Source: Apoderus coryli (lineage: Eukaryota > Arthropoda > Insecta > Coleoptera > Attelabidae). From it: DNA of 64,000 bases. Shown here in pieces: positions 21,006-47,108 of this stretch; position 1 is the first letter of the stretch; the number at the start of each line of letters is the position of its first letter. The position numbers were made by a program, and so were the translations under genes. The notes below the pieces were generated by a model. The model made no database searches, had not been told where the DNA came from, and worked only from the letters and a program-made list of their open reading frames with translations. Location: NCBI GenBank assembly GCA_911728435.2, contig OU452201.1:21576001-21640000 (forward strand), written 5' to 3'.

Positions 21006-21157
21006 AAAAAGCAAAACATCAAAGTAGACCCAGGATTTTGATATTTTGAATAGTTAGTTTTTCATTGAGAATAATTTTTCCTAATATCATTTTGTCGTAA
21101 CTTCAACAAGATAATGTTGATTCTCAGCATGCTTAATTTCGAGAATATTTTGGCGTG

Positions 21158-21363
21158 AATTAATTTTCTTAGCCCGGAGTTTCCCTTTTTAAAAAACTTT
21201 ATTTTCAAAATACAAAATTACAATATTTCTGGTTTATATTAACAAATAAAATTATTATAACTGAACTTGAAAAATAGCGTCTTCTTCCTATATATAATGT
21301 TTACTGCGGTGTCATTTGATCTCGCTTGGTCAGCATTTATACGGAGTGGACCATCATATAACT
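21158..21363 (-). repeat. 3' LTR
   Basis: 206 bp, identical by eye to 26974-27179. On the minus strand it carries a TATATATA box (21289-21296), a TCAGTT initiator-like motif downstream of it and AATAAA (21198-21203). Confidence 0.92.
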
Positions 21364-21374
21364 CCTCCCTCCTT
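21364..21374 (-). promoter_or_regulatory. polypurine tract
   Basis: The minus strand reads AAGGAGGGAGG directly before the 3' LTR, the expected place for the plus-strand primer. Confidence 0.85.
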
Positions 21375-21383
21375 AGAATAAAA

Positions 21384-24300
21384 CTACGCCTGGTTTAGGG
21401 GTAGTTGGATATGTTGGTATGTCTGAGTTTCCAAGTTGGTCTTCTTTCCATTGAGTTTTCGTCCTATAATGCACTTATATACCATATATGAGCATATTCC
21501 AAACACTAACATATAGATCAAAATTGTCCATAGACTCGGAAATTTTGAAATGCTGTCAAAAATTGTATATGGCTGATTTTTCATGATTTTATTTTGTAAC
21601 TCGTGTAGACTGTCTAAATTTATCTCTTGCAGATGGATACTTAAATTAAGGAGTGGAAGGTACTCTTTGGTTTCGTTAAAATCTGGGAAAATGATTGGCT
21701 GTTGACTGGAATTGGTTTCCTTTTGGTTATTGATTATTATTTTATCTTCGGTCTTTATTTGGCACCCAGTTGGTATTGTCGTTAAGTAACTTCCTAGTAA
21801 CCTTTGGTTTTCTTCTTGAAAAGGGCATTTTAATTGTACAATAGTTTCCTTTGGTAGTACTAAAATCCATTTATCTGATTGGTCTAGTCGATTTATGATT
21901 GGTTTTGTTGCTGTGATATATGTTTGTTGACAGGTGGGGGTGTTTTTGGTCGATCCTAGTAGTTGTACTTCACAAGGGCTGTTTTCTTCGATTTCTTTCA
22001 GCATTGGTTTGTAGCAGAGGAAAGTTTGTGGACGTACGATTGTACAAGGCGTTCCAAAATGTGAATAGTGTAACTGACTTTTTACTAGATATGTATTACG
22101 CGGAATGACTACCTTAAACAGACTCTGATGTTTGACTGGTAGAGAATATAAATGGTAATAGTCGAATTTATTTGGGTATGTTACAGGAATGTGTAATAAA
22201 AAAGTGATTTTATTTTTATAAATAAAGCAATCTATTTCAATGAGTTTTTCGAACAAAAATATGTTTTCTAAGTTAATAGGTAAAGGCAATGAATTAGGAC
22301 CTACAATGTGTTCCAACTTCTTTAGTTCGGTTAAAAGGTTATTTGTTTTAATTATGCTAGGGTGCATAGTTTTGAGTCTAGCAAAAGTTATTGAATTTTC
22401 TAAGTCTTGGAGCATAGAGTCAATTATTTCATAGAAACTGATTATTTGATTGATAATGTCTTTAATAAAATTATAGTTTTCGGGAATTGTAGTTCTTTGC
22501 ACAATTAGCCCAATTTGATTAATTCTTTTTTCTATTAGCTTTTCATTTTGATTAATTTGTTGAACAGTATTGTTGAAATTCTGGATTATGCTTGTTGAAA
22601 TTGAATTCTGGTTTTTGATAATTGTTGCCAAGTTATTTTGATTGGTTTCTAAATTATTGATGAGTTTTTCGTAGCGTTCGCCATCCGACGCATCGAGGTT
22701 ACCAGTTATGAGTTTGAAAACTGAGCCTGCTGCATTAATAAGTCCTCTTTTGGTCCTTTGGGGGTGAGGTATCAAATTTTTGATTTTGGTTTCAACTCTT
22801 TCTTGAATTAAATTAAGAATTTTTATATAGTTAGATGTTTCGTTAAAATATTCATTATGTTTATTTAAAGAATTGGTTATGTTTTTGGTTCTGAAATGTA
22901 ATTTGTTAACCTCCGTTATAATGGGATTTAAGTCGAAGTAATGTATTAGAGTAAAGGTGTATTGTACGTGTTTTGCTTGTCCAAGTTTAAGAGGTAGTAT
23001 GCCAGGGTTATCGTCCAGTTGCCTAAGTACTATTTTGTCTTCTGCGTAAATTGTGGCGGCGAGCCTGAAATAAAATTTTGGTTTTTTGTCAAAGCTGTAT
23101 GTTTGCCTGAGGGGGCGTTTTAAATTGTCCATATGAACTTTAGTTTGTGATTCTGTAGAAACGGTTTTACGGTTTTCATTTACTGAGAGGATTTTGGTGG
23201 GTTTTAGGAATTTGTCTGTAAGTTTTTGTCTTATGTGTTTCTTAGGGTAGACTTTTTGGTTTTCTGTGAAAATATCGGGTTTATCTCGGTTTTCGTTAAT
23301 TTTAGAAATAACCTTCTCTTTATTTCCAATTAGTTTTTCATTTATATTAGAGTATAAAAGACGAGCCTTTTCTTTGTGATTATTAATATAGTCAGTTGGT
23401 AACATTTGGTCTAATTTTATATCGAATGGATCATTATCAGAAATATGGCCGTTAATAACGTCTATAGGTTTAAATTTCGTAACAGAATGTATTGAGTTAT
23501 TATATGCTAAAATGGCGTAAACCATTTTTTGACTTATTGGAGATTTTGAAAACTCTTGATTATTAAGGAGGCGAATGTGTTCGCTTAAAGTGGAATGGAG
23601 TCTTTCAACTTGCCCGTTAGATTGTGAGTGATACGGAGAGCAAAAATGAATTTTAATTTTATGGAGGTTTAGCATTTCAGTTACAACCGTATTTTTGAAT
23701 TCAGTTCCATTATCTAATATAATTTGTTCTGGGACACTATGATGAGAAAAGAAAATTAATAGTTTGTCAACAATTTCTGAAGCTGCAAGTGACTGAAGGC
23801 CATATGCTTGCGCATATTTTGAAAAGCTGTCGATTATTGTAAGGAATTTGGTTTTTTCTAAAGTGTATACGTCTATATGAATTATTTGAAAAGGACGGGA
23901 AGCAGTAGGTGTGACGTTCATTTGCATATTTATAGGGTGACGTTCGTATTTACTTCTTTGACAAATTTCACAATTGTTTATATAGGTTTGTACAGAGTCT
24001 TTTTGGTTTGGCCAATAATATTTTTGTTTAATTCTTTCGAGGGTTTCGTCGATGCCTCTATGATTATTTTTTGATTCATGATACATTTTTATGATGTCAC
24101 AAATTTCAGTTTTATCGGTAACGTCTATTAATTTCTTTAAACAACGTCTTAACTTTAGTGAAGGCCATTTGAATGTTTTTCTTATAACTTCGCAAAATGG
24201 TTCGTAAATATCTGATTTTTCAAAATAAAGGTAATATTGCTTATCAGGCACGATAATTTCTTTAAATGTATTTAAAATATCGACATCAAAATTACTTTTG

Positions 24301-26660
24301 GAAATTTGGATGATATAGCGGCGTTTCTTTTCAAATAAGATTGTCAATTTTGGTTTTGCAGGGGAATGTAGTACTTGTTGTATAATTATTTGATTCGCAC
24401 CGTAGTTTACAGGAATATCATGTATTGGAATGTCGACTATGGGGTCTTCGTTTACGTTTGTATGTATAGTCATGTTATCGTTGTTCGCTGCATCATCATT
24501 AGGTACTGGGAGTTCTATGTCGTTGTATCGAGTGTTGTCAGTGTCGTCCACTTGGGCAATAGTTGAAATTTGGTCGGTGTTGTGGTCAGCTGTTTCGTTT
24601 TCTAGTTGTTTATTAAAGTCTTCGATATAATCTTTTAGGGAAAATTTTGGGGATTCGTCAATATTGTTTAAATTTATTTCCGACATTACCTTAGAATTGA
24701 ATTGTTCTACGCCTATGGGTTCTGATAGGTCTAACGTAATGGATTCACAGGTATTGTTTAAAATAGTTGTGAGTGCAAAGCCTTTTTTTGCAGTTGATAG
24801 TGATTCTGGGATTTCACAGTTATGAAATTTTTGATGTGGTATTATAATATCACCATTTTTTATGGAAGTCCTAATCGTAATTACTTGTTCGACACGCGGT
24901 GGGATCGTTATATTGTTAAGTTCACATCTTGTTTTCTGGAATTGTAACTTAATATGCGTGTACGGTGTAACTAAATAGTTGTTATTGTAGTCTAAAGTTG
25001 CTTGCAATAATTTTAAATTATCTAAACCTAAAAGTCCATCAAAAATATTATGAAATTTAAATAGGTAGAATTTTAAATCTTTATTTTCGGGTAAATTAAA
25101 TAATTTTGAAGCAGGCATAAGAACACTATGTCTATGAGCTGATTTCTGATATACTGTAGACGCAACGAATGGATCGTCTATTATTTTATTCGGAAATAAC
25201 TTTTTGGCAAGAATCGGGTCCAAAAATGAATTACTTGAACCGGAATCTATCAAAATTTTAAGGTTATTTTCTGGAAATATAATGTAGGATAATTCGTTAG
25301 GGTTGGACATATTAAAAGATATTGTAGGTGTTTCTAACCGTTCGGGGTTTTCCTGGCCGTCCTGTCGAAAATTTGAAGCATTTTCTACAGGCTGATTATT
25401 TACTGGTTGTTCTTGTTGAGGTAGGTCATCGCAGGAGTGTTCGTATTGGTTAGGATATGCAGAGTAGAAATCTTGATATTGGTTAGGTTCATTGTACTGG
25501 CTCTCATCGTAATAATAGTCTTGTTGAGGTAGGTCATGTGATTCTACATTGTATAGTTCTTCAAAAGTGAATTTAGGTGGGTTATAATTATTATTAGGTT
25601 GATTTGTAAAGGGTTTAAATTGAGAAGTTTCTATGCCAGACATGGGTGTGGGTGTAGGTTGTTTTACATTTTGAGGTTTAAAAACATTAGTTCCATTGTT
25701 ATTTGGTCTGCCAAAAACTTGCGAGTTTGTGGGGAATCTTGTTCCGTTAAAACGAGGTCGAATATTAACCGACTGTGGAGAAAAATTCGTTCGAAAAGCA
25801 TTGTTTGAAGTTTGATAATTAAAAGGTCTTTGTGAAAAGTTAGTTTGAAAGGGTCGCGTATATAGGTTTTGTTGCATGGGCCTAAAATTTTGAGTATTAT
25901 TTTTAAAGGATATATTAGGTTTATTTTGGTTTTGAAAATAATGAATATTATCCTCTTGTGAAACAAATTGTAGTGCTTGCATTAGAGTAGCGGGACGCAT
26001 ACATCTGATTGTAGTTCCCAGAGGCTCTTTTAATCCCGATAGGAATGTTTTCAAGGCAAGGTCGTTATACAAATTTCTTTTTAATGTTTTACCAGCAACT
26101 GATAATTCGTGCGCATCAACAAAAGAACATAAAAGATTTAGTATGTGTAAAATCCTGTCGTAAAATTGACTAGGTTTTTCATTAGGTGCTTGTCTCATCA
26201 TAACCAGATCCCTATTTAAACAAGTTTCGTCTCTTTGATCGGCAAAATTACGTCTTAAGGTGTCCTTAAGTTCATTCCAGGTGTTAACATTTTGGATGTT
26301 TACAACTAATTTAGCATGACCACTAAGTTTGCCAATTAAAGAATTTAATAGGTATATATTGTGAAAATTATTTGGGTTAGCTATGTCGTAAAAAGAATCA
26401 ATCAAAGTTTGGCAAGTAGATAAATATCTGTTTAAATCATTAGCGTTACCGTCGAAGGTAGGAACACAGTTTAGATATTCAGGTTTAAAAGTATTTGCCA
26501 TTTTGCTATTACTATTATCTAAAGCAATAATTTCATTCAAATTATCTTTAATATTGACTTCTAAGTTTTGGTCGTAAATAGCAGAGTCAGTTGAAGGAGT
26601 TTGCAATGAGAGATTTTCTAAATTTTCGATAAGATTATTGATTGACATTACATTTATCAC
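21384..26660 (-). CDS. Gag-protease-integrase-Env fusion polyprotein without reverse transcriptase
   Basis: A single 1758-residue frame. Residues 1-450 are Gag-like: a capsid-like region, then an Asn/Gln-rich stretch without a CCHC knuckle. Protease: 'LIDSGSSNSF' (Asp472), with 'DGLLGLDN' near 541. Integrase: HHCC finger His861, His867, Cys897, Cys900, then the core triad Asp930, Asp983, Glu1019 (35 residues between the last two), 'SQSNGQVER' at 1012-1020. Env: from about 1195, with 'IHYFDLNPI', a furin-type RTKR (1302-1305), the conserved errantiviral 'GLINAAGSVFKLITGNLD' and a membrane anchor at about 1710-1733. Between the protease and the integrase there is only an acidic linker (about 650-830). 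No reverse-transcriptase palm, no YxDD and no RNase H is present. In related elements Env is usually a separate, spliced frame. Start chosen as the first ATG after the leader; ATGs at residues 5 and 54 are alternatives. Confidence 0.93.
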   Translation of the reverse strand: MINVMSINNLIENLENLSLQTPSTDSAIYDQNLEVNIKDNLNEIIALDNSNSKMANTFKPEYLNCVPTFDGNANDLNRYLSTCQTLIDSFYDIANPNNFHNIYLLNSLIGKLSGHAKLVVNIQNVNTWNELKDTLRRNFADQRDETCLNRDLVMMRQAPNEKPSQFYDRILHILNLLCSFVDAHELSVAGKTLKRNLYNDLALKTFLSGLKEPLGTTIRCMRPATLMQALQFVSQEDNIHYFQNQNKPNISFKNNTQNFRPMQQNLYTRPFQTNFSQRPFNYQTSNNAFRTNFSPQSVNIRPRFNGTRFPTNSQVFGRPNNNGTNVFKPQNVKQPTPTPMSGIETSQFKPFTNQPNNNYNPPKFTFEELYNVESHDLPQQDYYYDESQYNEPNQYQDFYSAYPNQYEHSCDDLPQQEQPVNNQPVENASNFRQDGQENPERLETPTISFNMSNPNELSYIIFPENNLKILIDSGSSNSFLDPILAKKLFPNKIIDDPFVASTVYQKSAHRHSVLMPASKLFNLPENKDLKFYLFKFHNIFDGLLGLDNLKLLQATLDYNNNYLVTPYTHIKLQFQKTRCELNNITIPPRVEQVITIRTSIKNGDIIIPHQKFHNCEIPESLSTAKKGFALTTILNNTCESITLDLSEPIGVEQFNSKVMSEINLNNIDESPKFSLKDYIEDFNKQLENETADHNTDQISTIAQVDDTDNTRYNDIELPVPNDDAANNDNMTIHTNVNEDPIVDIPIHDIPVNYGANQIIIQQVLHSPAKPKLTILFEKKRRYIIQISKSNFDVDILNTFKEIIVPDKQYYLYFEKSDIYEPFCEVIRKTFKWPSLKLRRCLKKLIDVTDKTEICDIIKMYHESKNNHRGIDETLERIKQKYYWPNQKDSVQTYINNCEICQRSKYERHPINMQMNVTPTASRPFQIIHIDVYTLEKTKFLTIIDSFSKYAQAYGLQSLAASEIVDKLLIFFSHHSVPEQIILDNGTEFKNTVVTEMLNLHKIKIHFCSPYHSQSNGQVERLHSTLSEHIRLLNNQEFSKSPISQKMVYAILAYNNSIHSVTKFKPIDVINGHISDNDPFDIKLDQMLPTDYINNHKEKARLLYSNINEKLIGNKEKVISKINENRDKPDIFTENQKVYPKKHIRQKLTDKFLKPTKILSVNENRKTVSTESQTKVHMDNLKRPLRQTYSFDKKPKFYFRLAATIYAEDKIVLRQLDDNPGILPLKLGQAKHVQYTFTLIHYFDLNPIITEVNKLHFRTKNITNSLNKHNEYFNETSNYIKILNLIQERVETKIKNLIPHPQRTKRGLINAAGSVFKLITGNLDASDGERYEKLINNLETNQNNLATIIKNQNSISTSIIQNFNNTVQQINQNEKLIEKRINQIGLIVQRTTIPENYNFIKDIINQIISFYEIIDSMLQDLENSITFARLKTMHPSIIKTNNLLTELKKLEHIVGPNSLPLPINLENIFLFEKLIEIDCFIYKNKITFLLHIPVTYPNKFDYYHLYSLPVKHQSLFKVVIPRNTYLVKSQLHYSHFGTPCTIVRPQTFLCYKPMLKEIEENSPCEVQLLGSTKNTPTCQQTYITATKPIINRLDQSDKWILVLPKETIVQLKCPFQEENQRLLGSYLTTIPTGCQIKTEDKIIINNQKETNSSQQPIIFPDFNETKEYLPLLNLSIHLQEINLDSLHELQNKIMKNQPYTIFDSISKFPSLWTILIYMLVFGICSYMVYKCIIGRKLNGKKTNLETQTYQHIQLPLNQA

Positions 26661-26973
26661 TTACACTAATACAATCAGGTTCGCTCTGGCCATTACTATA
26701 AGTTCCAAGTCTTGATTAGGCGATGATGGTCCTTCTCAATCACTTAGTCCTTGCGACGATAGACAATATTGATTCTATCGACCGATGATCGATTGTTCAA
26801 GAGCACTTTATAGTTCTGCGATAGATTGGGATTTTTCGATGTCCAGAAAGTCCCTTCTATAAAACACCCTCGCACCAACGTCACAACAAAGGTTCGTATT
26901 TTCGGTAAATCCGTTGACACGAAAAAGCAATACGATTGATTCGCACACTTCCGAAAATCCGACTGACTGCGCC
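26661..26973 (-). promoter_or_regulatory. 5' leader of the LTR element
   Basis: 313 bp between the 5' LTR and the first ATG, containing the primer site. This is where packaging and splice-donor signals would be expected; none could be assigned. Confidence 0.6.
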
Positions 26974-26974
26974 A
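26965..26974 (-). promoter_or_regulatory. primer-binding site (serine tRNA type)
   Basis: The minus strand reads TGGCGCAGTC, overlapping the last base of the LTR. This matches the 3' end of a serine tRNA, the primer used by several errantiviruses. Confidence 0.75.
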
Positions 26975-27179
26975 ATTAATTTTCTTAGCCCGGAGTTTCC
27001 CTTTTTAAAAAACTTTATTTTCAAAATACAAAATTACAATATTTCTGGTTTATATTAACAAATAAAATTATTATAACTGAACTTGAAAAATAGCGTCTTC
27101 TTCCTATATATAATGTTTACTGCGGTGTCATTTGATCTCGCTTGGTCAGCATTTATACGGAGTGGACCATCATATAACT
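26974..27179 (-). repeat. 5' LTR (promoter)
   Basis: Copy of the 206-bp LTR. TATATATA at 27105-27112 followed by a TCAGTT initiator-like motif would drive minus-strand transcription of the fusion frame. AATAAA at 27014-27019. Confidence 0.92.
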
Positions 27180-27250
27180 CGTGTTATTAACCTGTAACAG
27201 GGTTACTTGTAAGTAGACCGGAATATTTTAGGACGTGATAGCAGGCTTCA

Positions 27251-27831: not shown

Positions 27832-27903
27832 TGTATGTATTATAAATAAATCATTTACTATTTTTTTTTTGCAAAAATAATCCATTCTTAAGTGGAGTTG
27901 TAT

Positions 27904-28420
27904 ATTTTCGATGAGAAATAAAACTCGAATCTCCACAATAATAAATTCAATATAAATTTATAATTAATATCCAAACATATTTCGGAACTTCCACCAGTTC
28001 CATCATCGGTTTTTAATTTTTATTTTATTTCTGTCGAGGTGAATTGAATATTATCAAATTAATTAAAAAAAAATATAATTACCATCATGATCTATAAAAA
28101 GAAATGAAGAATATCAAAATAAGGTTGGATTTTTCTAAATTTATTTTTATAATAATAATAATAATACTAAAACGTACTTTATTGGTACAAAACCCCAAAA
28201 AGGCCATTGACCGAAGTCCTTCAGCCTTTTTAATTTTATTATTTTATTAATACAAACAACAAATATTTTCCATAAAAATGAACTCAATGGAAATTTCTGG
28301 AATATTGATTTTGATTGACGATGGAACTGGTGTAGGTTCCCAAACATGTTTGGATATTAATTATAAATTTGTATTGAATTTATTTTTGTGGAGATTCAAC
28401 TTTTATTTCTCATCGAAAAT
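27904..28420. mobile_element. inverted-repeat element with hammerhead-like core in its arm
   Basis: Arms of about 105 bp: left from ATTTTCGATGAGAAATA, right ending in the inverse of it. On the minus strand of the left arm, CCGATGA (28003-28009) is followed by a perfect 6-bp helix GGAACT/AGTTCC and GAAAT (27979-27983). The right-arm copy keeps the helix sequence (28323-28340) but has lost the flanking boxes. A (TAA)n-ACTTTATTGG retroelement tail lies inside at about 28147-28175. Confidence 0.6.
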
Positions 28421-28429
28421 CTTTAACTT

Positions 28430-45827: not shown

Positions 45828-46034
45828 ATTTCTAAATTATTTACTTTGAAGAAAAACGGGATTTCAAAAACACTATCTTATTTATCAGAACTAAATTCCT
45901 CACTAATCGTTTGCGTTTTTTGTTGAAATAAAAACTGCAGATACGTGTAGGAAAAGAATTTACACCGTTTATTTTAGTCTTTTCATTGATTCAGTTTGGT
46001 TGCTTCTCAAGTTATTTTACTTTTACCGTACAAA

Positions 46035-47108
46035 ATGATTTATTCCATTCTAGAACGAGTTGAAATTGTTAAACTTTATTTTCAAAATAATAGTAGTGCT
46101 AGACTTACGGCTCGCTTATTTAATGAGAGACATCCCGATAAAAATGTGAATGATGTGTACGTTGGCAAGTTAGTTAAAAAGTTTGTAGATACCGGATCTG
46201 TCTGTAATGTAAAACACCAGCCGCAGAAACCGATCAGAAATGAAGCTGTGGAAGTCGCTGTTTTAGGGCATGTTGAAATGGATCATAGTCAAAGTACCCG
46301 TCAACTAGCTGAAGCCTCAGGTGTCTCCCGTTCGTCCATAATACGAATTTTAAAAGCGTACAAATTTCATCCGTACAAAATCAAATTAGTACAGGAACTA
46401 AATGAGGATGATCCTGATAGAAGGCTGCAATTTTGTGAAGCAATGAGCCAGCGTTTAATTGAAGATCCGCAATTATTATTTAACATTTGTTTTTCCGACG
46501 AATGCACATTTTATTTGAATGGAGCTGTAAATAGGCACAATTGCCGTTACTGGGATGACAGTAACCCACATTTATTCCGTGAGGTTCATACCCAGTATCC
46601 TCAAAAAATAAACGTCTGGTGTGGCATATTAGGAAATCATATTATAGGACCACTTTTTATTCCTGGAAATTTAACTGGTGAAGTGTACCTAAACATGCTT
46701 GAAGACACAATTGATCCTTTAATAACACAAATAATAGAAGATGACCAAAATCATACTGCTGATCGGCTTTATTTCCAGCAAGATGGAGCACCTCCGCACT
46801 ATGTGGCTCCTGTAAGACAGTTCTTAGATGACCGGTTCCCTGGACGGTGGATTGGAAGGAGGGGCCCAATTGAATGGCCTGCCAGGTCACCGGATTTATC
46901 GCCTTTAGACTTTTTTCTTTGGGGGCACTTAAAAAATAAATGTTTTGCCACGAAGCCCGAGTCCATAGAAGATCTTCGCCAACGCATTACAGAAGAGTGC
47001 AGAAACATAACACCTGATATGCTACAAAATGTTAGAAATAGATTTGAACAAAATCTGTATTATTGTATGGAATCAAATGGGTCACATTTTCAACATTTGT
47101 TAATGTAA
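46035..47108 (+). CDS. mariner-like DD41D transposase
   Basis: 357 residues. The frame is open from 45996, but the ATG at 46035 (context ACAAAATGA) matches the usual family start. The N-terminal helix-turn-helix (DUF4817-like) starts 'MIYSILERVEIVKLYFQ'; a second HTH, 'RQLAEASGVSRSSIIRIL', follows at about 89-106. Catalytic Asp residues in the frame numbered from 45996 are Asp168 (FSDECTF), Asp263 (QQDGAPPH) and Asp305 (SPDLSPLDFFLWG). There are 41 residues between the last two, hence DD41D. 'KINVWCGILG' and the C-terminal 'CMESNGSHFQHLL' are also family blocks. It cuts and pastes the flanking element. The gene is intact, with no stop or frameshift. Relatives in this window are all broken. 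Confidence 0.93.
   Translation: MIYSILERVEIVKLYFQNNSSARLTARLFNERHPDKNVNDVYVGKLVKKFVDTGSVCNVKHQPQKPIRNEAVEVAVLGHVEMDHSQSTRQLAEASGVSRSSIIRILKAYKFHPYKIKLVQELNEDDPDRRLQFCEAMSQRLIEDPQLLFNICFSDECTFYLNGAVNRHNCRYWDDSNPHLFREVHTQYPQKINVWCGILGNHIIGPLFIPGNLTGEVYLNMLEDTIDPLITQIIEDDQNHTADRLYFQQDGAPPHYVAPVRQFLDDRFPGRWIGRRGPIEWPARSPDLSPLDFFLWGHLKNKCFATKPESIEDLRQRITEECRNITPDMLQNVRNRFEQNLYYCMESNGSHFQHLLM

Follow-up and report, generated by a model that had tools for sequence, protein, structure and literature searches.

We analyzed a 64,000-nucleotide stretch of contig OU452201.1 (positions 21,576,001 to 21,640,000) of the beetle Apoderus coryli, hereafter the window, which carries on its minus strand a provirus of ~6 kb (21154-27183) without reverse transcriptase (RT). 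All coordinates given for this provirus are window positions on the minus strand. Gag, protease, a linker, integrase, and Env are encoded in one uninterrupted frame of 1758 codons (21384..26660 in the list of open reading frames [ORFs]); the remaining frames of the element offer no ORF longer than 105 codons. Among the Pfam models, Integrase_H2C2, rve, and Baculo_F (6.6e-33) pass their cut-offs in the long frame, the Gag model falls slightly under its cut-off (23.8 versus 24.1 bits), and the protease model is weak (14.7 versus 24.3). The catalytic residues D472 of the protease and D930, D983, and E1019 of the integrase are all kept. In contrast to these matches, the RVT_1 and RNase H models found nothing within the 1758-codon frame, which also holds no [FY]xDD motif. 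Domain matches and residues thus confirm the initial annotation of this locus, which had described Gag, protease, integrase, and Env without RT in one frame.

The provirus is bounded by CACG target-site duplications, the 5′ copy at 27180..27183 and the 3′ copy at 21154..21157, which flank the element termini AGTT...AATT on both sides. Repeat comparison delimits a 5′ long terminal repeat (LTR; 26974..27179) and a 3′ LTR (21158..21363) of 206-207 bases that show no difference from each other. A primer-binding-site-like sequence, TGGCGCAGTC..., presumably of the tRNA-Ser type, lies at the end of the 5′ LTR (26959..26974), and a polypurine tract (21364..21374) immediately precedes the 3′ LTR. The LTRs, primer site, polypurine tract, and four-base duplication claimed before were all recovered. 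They place the window copy as an errantivirus-type element (Metaviridae), and, as RT and RNase H are missing, it is a derivative and no autonomous member of that type.

The ancestral layout can be read in RT-bearing siblings found elsewhere in the genome, for which we searched one assembly (428 Mb in 129 contigs). In these siblings, gag comprises 441 codons and overlaps a pol of 1257 codons that is read in the −1 frame; a stop closes pol, after which the main exon of env lies in the same frame as pol. Gag, pol, and env (441, 1257, and 566 codons) are all open in 7 of the 14 RT-bearing copies retrieved. The overlap contains AAATTTT, phased correctly for a putative −1 slippage, and the same motif survives in the window (25368..25374) as a candidate slippery site of the ancestral gag/pol overlap. 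Upstream of gag, a short exon that encodes a peptide contains a splice donor; an acceptor follows shortly past the end of pol, and the reading that joins the two starts like a signal peptide. Because RT-bearing siblings have an overlapping gag/pol and a stop before env, the single frame of the window copy is itself the derived state, a point that goes beyond the initial annotation.

In the DNA sequence of the window copy, the donor, the acceptor, and the signal-peptide-like reading that a spliced env RNA would use are discernible. A short leader coding exon 5′ of gag (26665..26693), which would provide the beginning of the Env signal peptide, ends at a splice-donor-like GTAAGTG. The acceptor-like TTTATTTCAG (23065-23074) precedes an env main exon of the Baculo_F type (21387..23064), which encodes a furin site, RTKR (residue 1302; 22746..22757), then a fusion-peptide-like stretch, and a hydrophobic stretch judged by eye to be the anchor (residues 1707-1730; 21471..21542). 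Three differences set this frame apart from the siblings. An A-run (25348..25351) carries one base more than in those RT-bearing copies whose overlap is unfused (22 of 24, matched by position and by hand) and brings gag and pol in frame. A lysine codon (23085..23087) occupies the position of the pol stop in the compared RT-bearing copies; it follows directly on the integrase (residues 849-1191; 23088..24116), which comprises a zinc-binding domain and D930/D983/E1019. Finally, comparison with the siblings puts the loss of RT and RNase H between two copies of a 9-base direct repeat, AAAATTTTC, that remains as the junction (24640..24648); 1464 bases, or 488 codons, are gone. The segment absent from the window, as read in the RT-bearing sibling L018, matches RVT_1 (1.5e-42) and RNase H (9.5e-38). 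The clean in-frame loss of RT and the retention of integrase and Env proposed by the initial annotation are thus supported, and full-length relatives sufficed to place the breakpoint.

A 1001-base query from the integrase side detected copies of the family at 99-100% identity across the genome. Among the 40 of 84 candidates that were scored, 18 are RT-less (a lower bound, as 44 candidates are unscored), 21 have a complete RT, and one, L026, matches the RT query partially, having lost 305 bases out of frame and kept most of RT. Three more RT-bearing copies surface only with the RT query (40 of 184 candidates scored; RT domains identified in one copy, L018), for a total of 24 that match the full query at 99-100%; outside the family, identity drops to 71%. 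The LTRs of the siblings are nearly identical to those of the RT-less copies, as expected of the full-length partner that the initial annotation had proposed to look for. It had further considered that the junction might be confined to a single copy or reflect a misassembly. A query with the window junction (40 of 67 candidates scored) revealed eight copies that span it at different chromosomal places, each with its own duplication, which, within this assembly, rules out a one-off deletion at the window locus or a misassembly; such an origin has practically no probability left.

Measured relative to L018, the RT-less copies fall into five deletion classes. Class A (the window copy, L012, L013, L014, L015, L017, L019, and L029) lost 1464 bases at a junction that shares 9; class B (L031, L032, L037, and L040) lost 1398 and class C (L030, L035, L038, and L039) lost 1506, each at a junction that shares 5; class D (L036) lost 1713 with 3 shared bases; and class E (L041) lost 1203 with 7. 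The breakpoints differ between classes, and all five deletions are divisible by three (chance 0.004; this and all further p values are guides only, the copies being related and recombining). RT was thus lost at least five times independently, which the initial annotation had not anticipated. The env splice acceptor and the Env start are kept in classes A and D only and are gone in B, C, and E. A further locus, L033, is reduced to a 1.9-kb remnant that retains just the beginning of gag and the last part of env; its LTRs are identical, and it carries a target duplication of its own.

All 18 RT-less copies are flanked by a perfect 4-base duplication, at different sites, and in 15 of them the LTR pair is identical, the exceptions being L031, L037, and L040 of class B, whose LTRs differ by ~0.5-1% (copy ages are read from LTR identity alone). 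Given these duplications and identical LTR pairs, the RT-less copies transposed as RT-less units. They also exchanged sequence. Three protease-region alleles are common to RT-less L014, L015, and L019 and RT-bearing L018 and L020, and four env alleles are common to class A L019 and L026. Class C L038 combines the gag-pol insertion of class A with a pol-env deletion of class B, while L039 has the same insertion as L038 together with a different pol-env deletion. Recurrence of the class A deletion is not a simple source of the alleles in L014, L015, and L019, as these copies share downstream alleles that are unique to RT-less copies. Nor do we retain a stepwise history of class A (RT loss, stop loss, gag-pol fusion): L013 resembles L012 at some alleles and RT-bearing copies in other states, and no order is therefore claimed.

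The exchanged variants are economically explained by template switching among RNAs of the same particle, which makes the siblings the likely source of RT. The need for RT in trans postulated by the initial annotation fits RT-less insertions beside RT-bearing siblings. Alternatively, RT could be supplied by another retroelement family, and related families at ~70% DNA identity are indeed present. However, alleles and deletions were exchanged within the same family, and the LTRs and leader of the siblings are nearly identical to those of the RT-less copies, which makes a foreign source very improbable.

The fusion of frames, too, occurred repeatedly. Gag and pol are joined by a one-base insertion in the overlap, for which three distinct positions occur: the first in the window copy, L012, L017, L029, L038, and L039 (and also in L026), the second in L030, L032, L035, and L037, and the third in L041. 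Four different events abolished the pol stop, namely a point change in seven of the eight class A copies (L013 excepted) and otherwise in-frame deletions of 408, 156, or 288 bases. As a result, ten copies from four deletion classes possess one frame from gag to env: the window copy (1758 codons), L012 (1746), L017 (1755), L030 (1631), L032 (1644), L035 (1631), L037 (1640), L038 (1608), L039 (1692), and L041 (1749). In the seven that belong to classes B, C, and E, the frame is open to the end of Env despite the lost Env start. One frame through env is thus found in 10 of 18 RT-less copies but in none of the 24 with RT (p = 3e-5), and a gag-pol fusion in 11 of 18 versus 2 of 24 (p = 5e-4), where 14 of the RT-bearing copies were retrieved and 10 judged by the overlap alone. 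The two RT-bearing exceptions are L021, in which a deletion joins gag and pol, and L042, in which an inserted base does so. The stop before env is intact in both, and gag-pol fusion is therefore not exclusive to RT-less copies. L042 (G000:C14:18253300-18261800) is truncated at its 3′ end and flanked on both sides by pieces of a second family, suggesting a nested insertion.

Next, we asked whether indels and coding changes reveal constraint on these frames. In a manual count that excludes the three fusing insertions, 16 of 21 distinct indels in RT-less copies are in frame (p = 7e-5). The five that break the frame are private to single copies (two in L029 and one each in L031, L036, and L040), and indels common to two or more RT-less copies are in frame in 9 of 9 cases. 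For comparison, RT-bearing L010, L011, L021, and L028 have five indels, two of them in frame (these four copies make up the comparison; L027 and L042 are untabulated). Coding changes unique to the 18 RT-less copies, after dropping sites within 25 bases of the 18 breakpoints and leaving out L026 and L033, number 114: 80 missense, 34 silent, and no stops. The 13 RT-bearing copies (without L042) have 3 stops besides 35 missense and 29 silent changes. Zero stops among 114 changes has a P of 0.0015-0.0064 under neutral models with three nonsense rates. Only in integrase does the type of change set the two groups apart, with a nonsilent-to-silent ratio of 25:7 in RT-less copies versus 7:9, one a stop, in RT-bearing copies (Fisher 0.025). 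Hence the openness of the frame seems constrained, while the content of integrase seems not to be, and strong purifying selection acting on every protein of the RT-less copies finds no support in the missense and silent counts.

These observations are probably explained by a non-autonomous set of elements that arose from one errantivirus-type family through repeated loss of RT, is copied by the enzymes of its siblings, and benefits in cis from uninterrupted translation. The RT-RNase H segment would have been deleted in frame at least five times during replication; the junctions share 9, 7, 5, 5, and 3 bases, as template switching would leave. RT-less genomes keep the LTRs, primer site, and polypurine tract, and would be copied and integrated in shared particles by the enzymes of RT-bearing siblings. 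Those RNAs that can be translated without interruption would spread best through selection in cis, and this would be why gag, the remainder of pol, and env were fused repeatedly into one frame. We infer co-packaging, the use of sibling RT, and the cis benefit from the dispersed insertions, the recombinants, and the frame statistics.

The same data could, alternatively, stem from neutral decay, in which young RT-less copies are passive passengers of the helper and their frames were fused by chance deletions and slippage in A/T runs. In favor of this alternative, overall divergence is low, the gag/pol overlap contains A and T runs, L029, L031, L036, and L040 have frame-breaking indels, and 7 of the 18 RT-less copies are unfused. 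Since these seven inserted nevertheless, fusion is not required for insertion. Several further points weigh against a cis benefit. Gag-pol fusion also occurs in RT-bearing L021 and in the degraded L042, the class A insertion is present in L026 with most of its RT, and the homopolymer runs may simply be insertion prone. The direct comparison of stops between RT-less and RT-bearing copies (0 of 114 versus 3 of 67) yields only p = 0.049, and RT-bearing copies, which should need their proteins more, carry stops at about the neutral rate. Moreover, the missense-to-silent ratio of RT-less copies, 80:34, is mildly below the neutral expectation (~2.7-3.7 to 1), RT-less and RT-bearing copies show no significant difference in the changes of gag, protease, and env, and the kinship and recombination of the copies make the tests overstate independence. 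However, chance would have to account for in-frame events in all five RT deletions, all three pol-env deletions, and all nine shared indels, for the convergence of three gag-pol insertions and four losses of the pol stop, and for the absence of stops among the 114 changes. Neutral decay is therefore unlikely.

If selection in cis is at work, its benefit might come from the protein or from the RNA. The first possibility is a sub-case of the preferred explanation, in which the fused Gag-protease-integrase(-Env) protein itself aids its own RNA. It has a reported precedent in the gag-pol fusion protein of the mouse element IAP 1Δ1 (PMC6466679, PMC7411935), and is in line with the intact catalytic residues of protease and integrase in the window copy and with the open gag frame in 18 of 18 RT-less copies. 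However, the integrase changes of RT-less copies are near neutral, and L029, whose gag and pol are fused and which has two one-base deletions, has an altered integrase triad residue, a change that may be later than its insertion. The protein thus remains a candidate of which we are doubtful. The second possibility is that openness itself was selected: frameshifting, stops, and, in classes B, C, and E, env splicing would have been abolished so that ribosomes cross the whole RNA, their passage shielding it from decay or aiding its packaging, largely whatever protein results. We can propose this specific form only tentatively. Between the two sources, we lean towards RNA and translation rather than the fused protein, because of the near-neutral integrase changes and the Env start lost in classes B, C, and E.

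Relatives of the window frame in protein databases almost always have RT. The nearest, P0002, is 71% identical, its alignment being split into two blocks by a gap of ~480 residues, and 96 of 97 homologues of the protease-integrase part have an RT domain. The lone exception, P0078, a gene model of the beetle Trypoxylus dichotomus with a Gag-like start and an integrase, seems by eye to be without parts of the protease and integrase and could be an artifact of annotation. Neither the Env part nor the Gag part retrieved a relative from the candidate proteins of 0.55 to 1.75 times 1758 amino acids, a length window that leaves out separate Gag or Env proteins, and viral contigs and phage records yielded none either. 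Within the A. coryli genome, a related second family represented by L043 (G000:C10:20506500-20514500; ~67% DNA identity) has the same gag/pol/env layout and few copies, five of which match the full RT query at 97-100%, the other close matches being pieces; with 40 of 237 candidates scored, no spread RT-less subfamily was seen. Three further features of the window lie outside the provirus: a 754-codon frame with RVT_1 (5.5e-35) at 592-2856 on the plus strand, by appearance a non-LTR retroelement; a transposase-like frame of 370 codons with helix-turn-helix domains and DUF4817 (8.4e-09) at 45996-47108 on the plus strand; and, just outside the element at 27896-28428, an inverted repeat whose 112-base arms are 89% complementary and 309 bases apart.

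Among known systems, mouse IAP 1Δ1 is the closest precedent found. Its gag-pol fusion reportedly acts in cis while gag and pol are supplied in trans (PMC6466679, PMC7411935), and, as in 11 of our 18 RT-less copies, an internal deletion goes together with a fused gag-pol frame. In IAP 1Δ1, however, the deletion itself creates the fusion, whereas here a separate one-base insertion does so; here it is RT-RNase H that is deleted, protease and integrase are left, and the frame runs through env; and the convergence involves at least five independent deletions and three different gag-pol insertions, in an element of insect errantivirus type. The env main exon and upstream donor exon resemble those of ZAM/Beagle-type insect errantiviruses with Env-F; in the ZAM and Beagle subclades, the env donor is described in a short peptide-coding exon 5′ of gag (PMC12992720). 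In contrast to insect errantiviruses, 18 copies, the window copy among them, have neither RT nor RNase H, and 10 of the 18 have one frame. In the elements of the present family, large parts of gag, pol, and env are still open, unlike in ETn, which has little retroviral coding capacity. The replication proposed here nevertheless resembles that of MusD/ETn, in which non-autonomous elements are replicated by the particles of a coding relative (PMC12283350). A title-level search of the literature on RT-less LTR elements and non-autonomous errantiviruses returned no title describing such an arrangement.

Five losses of RT within one young family amount to replicated natural experiments on what a retrovirus needs in cis. 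RT-bearing siblings and visible recombination allow one to ask whether translation in cis drives the spread of a non-autonomous RNA, for which the mouse element is the only precedent found. The family also shows that RT can be the sole part that an errantivirus-type element sheds, while protease, integrase, and sometimes an apparently expressible envelope stay.

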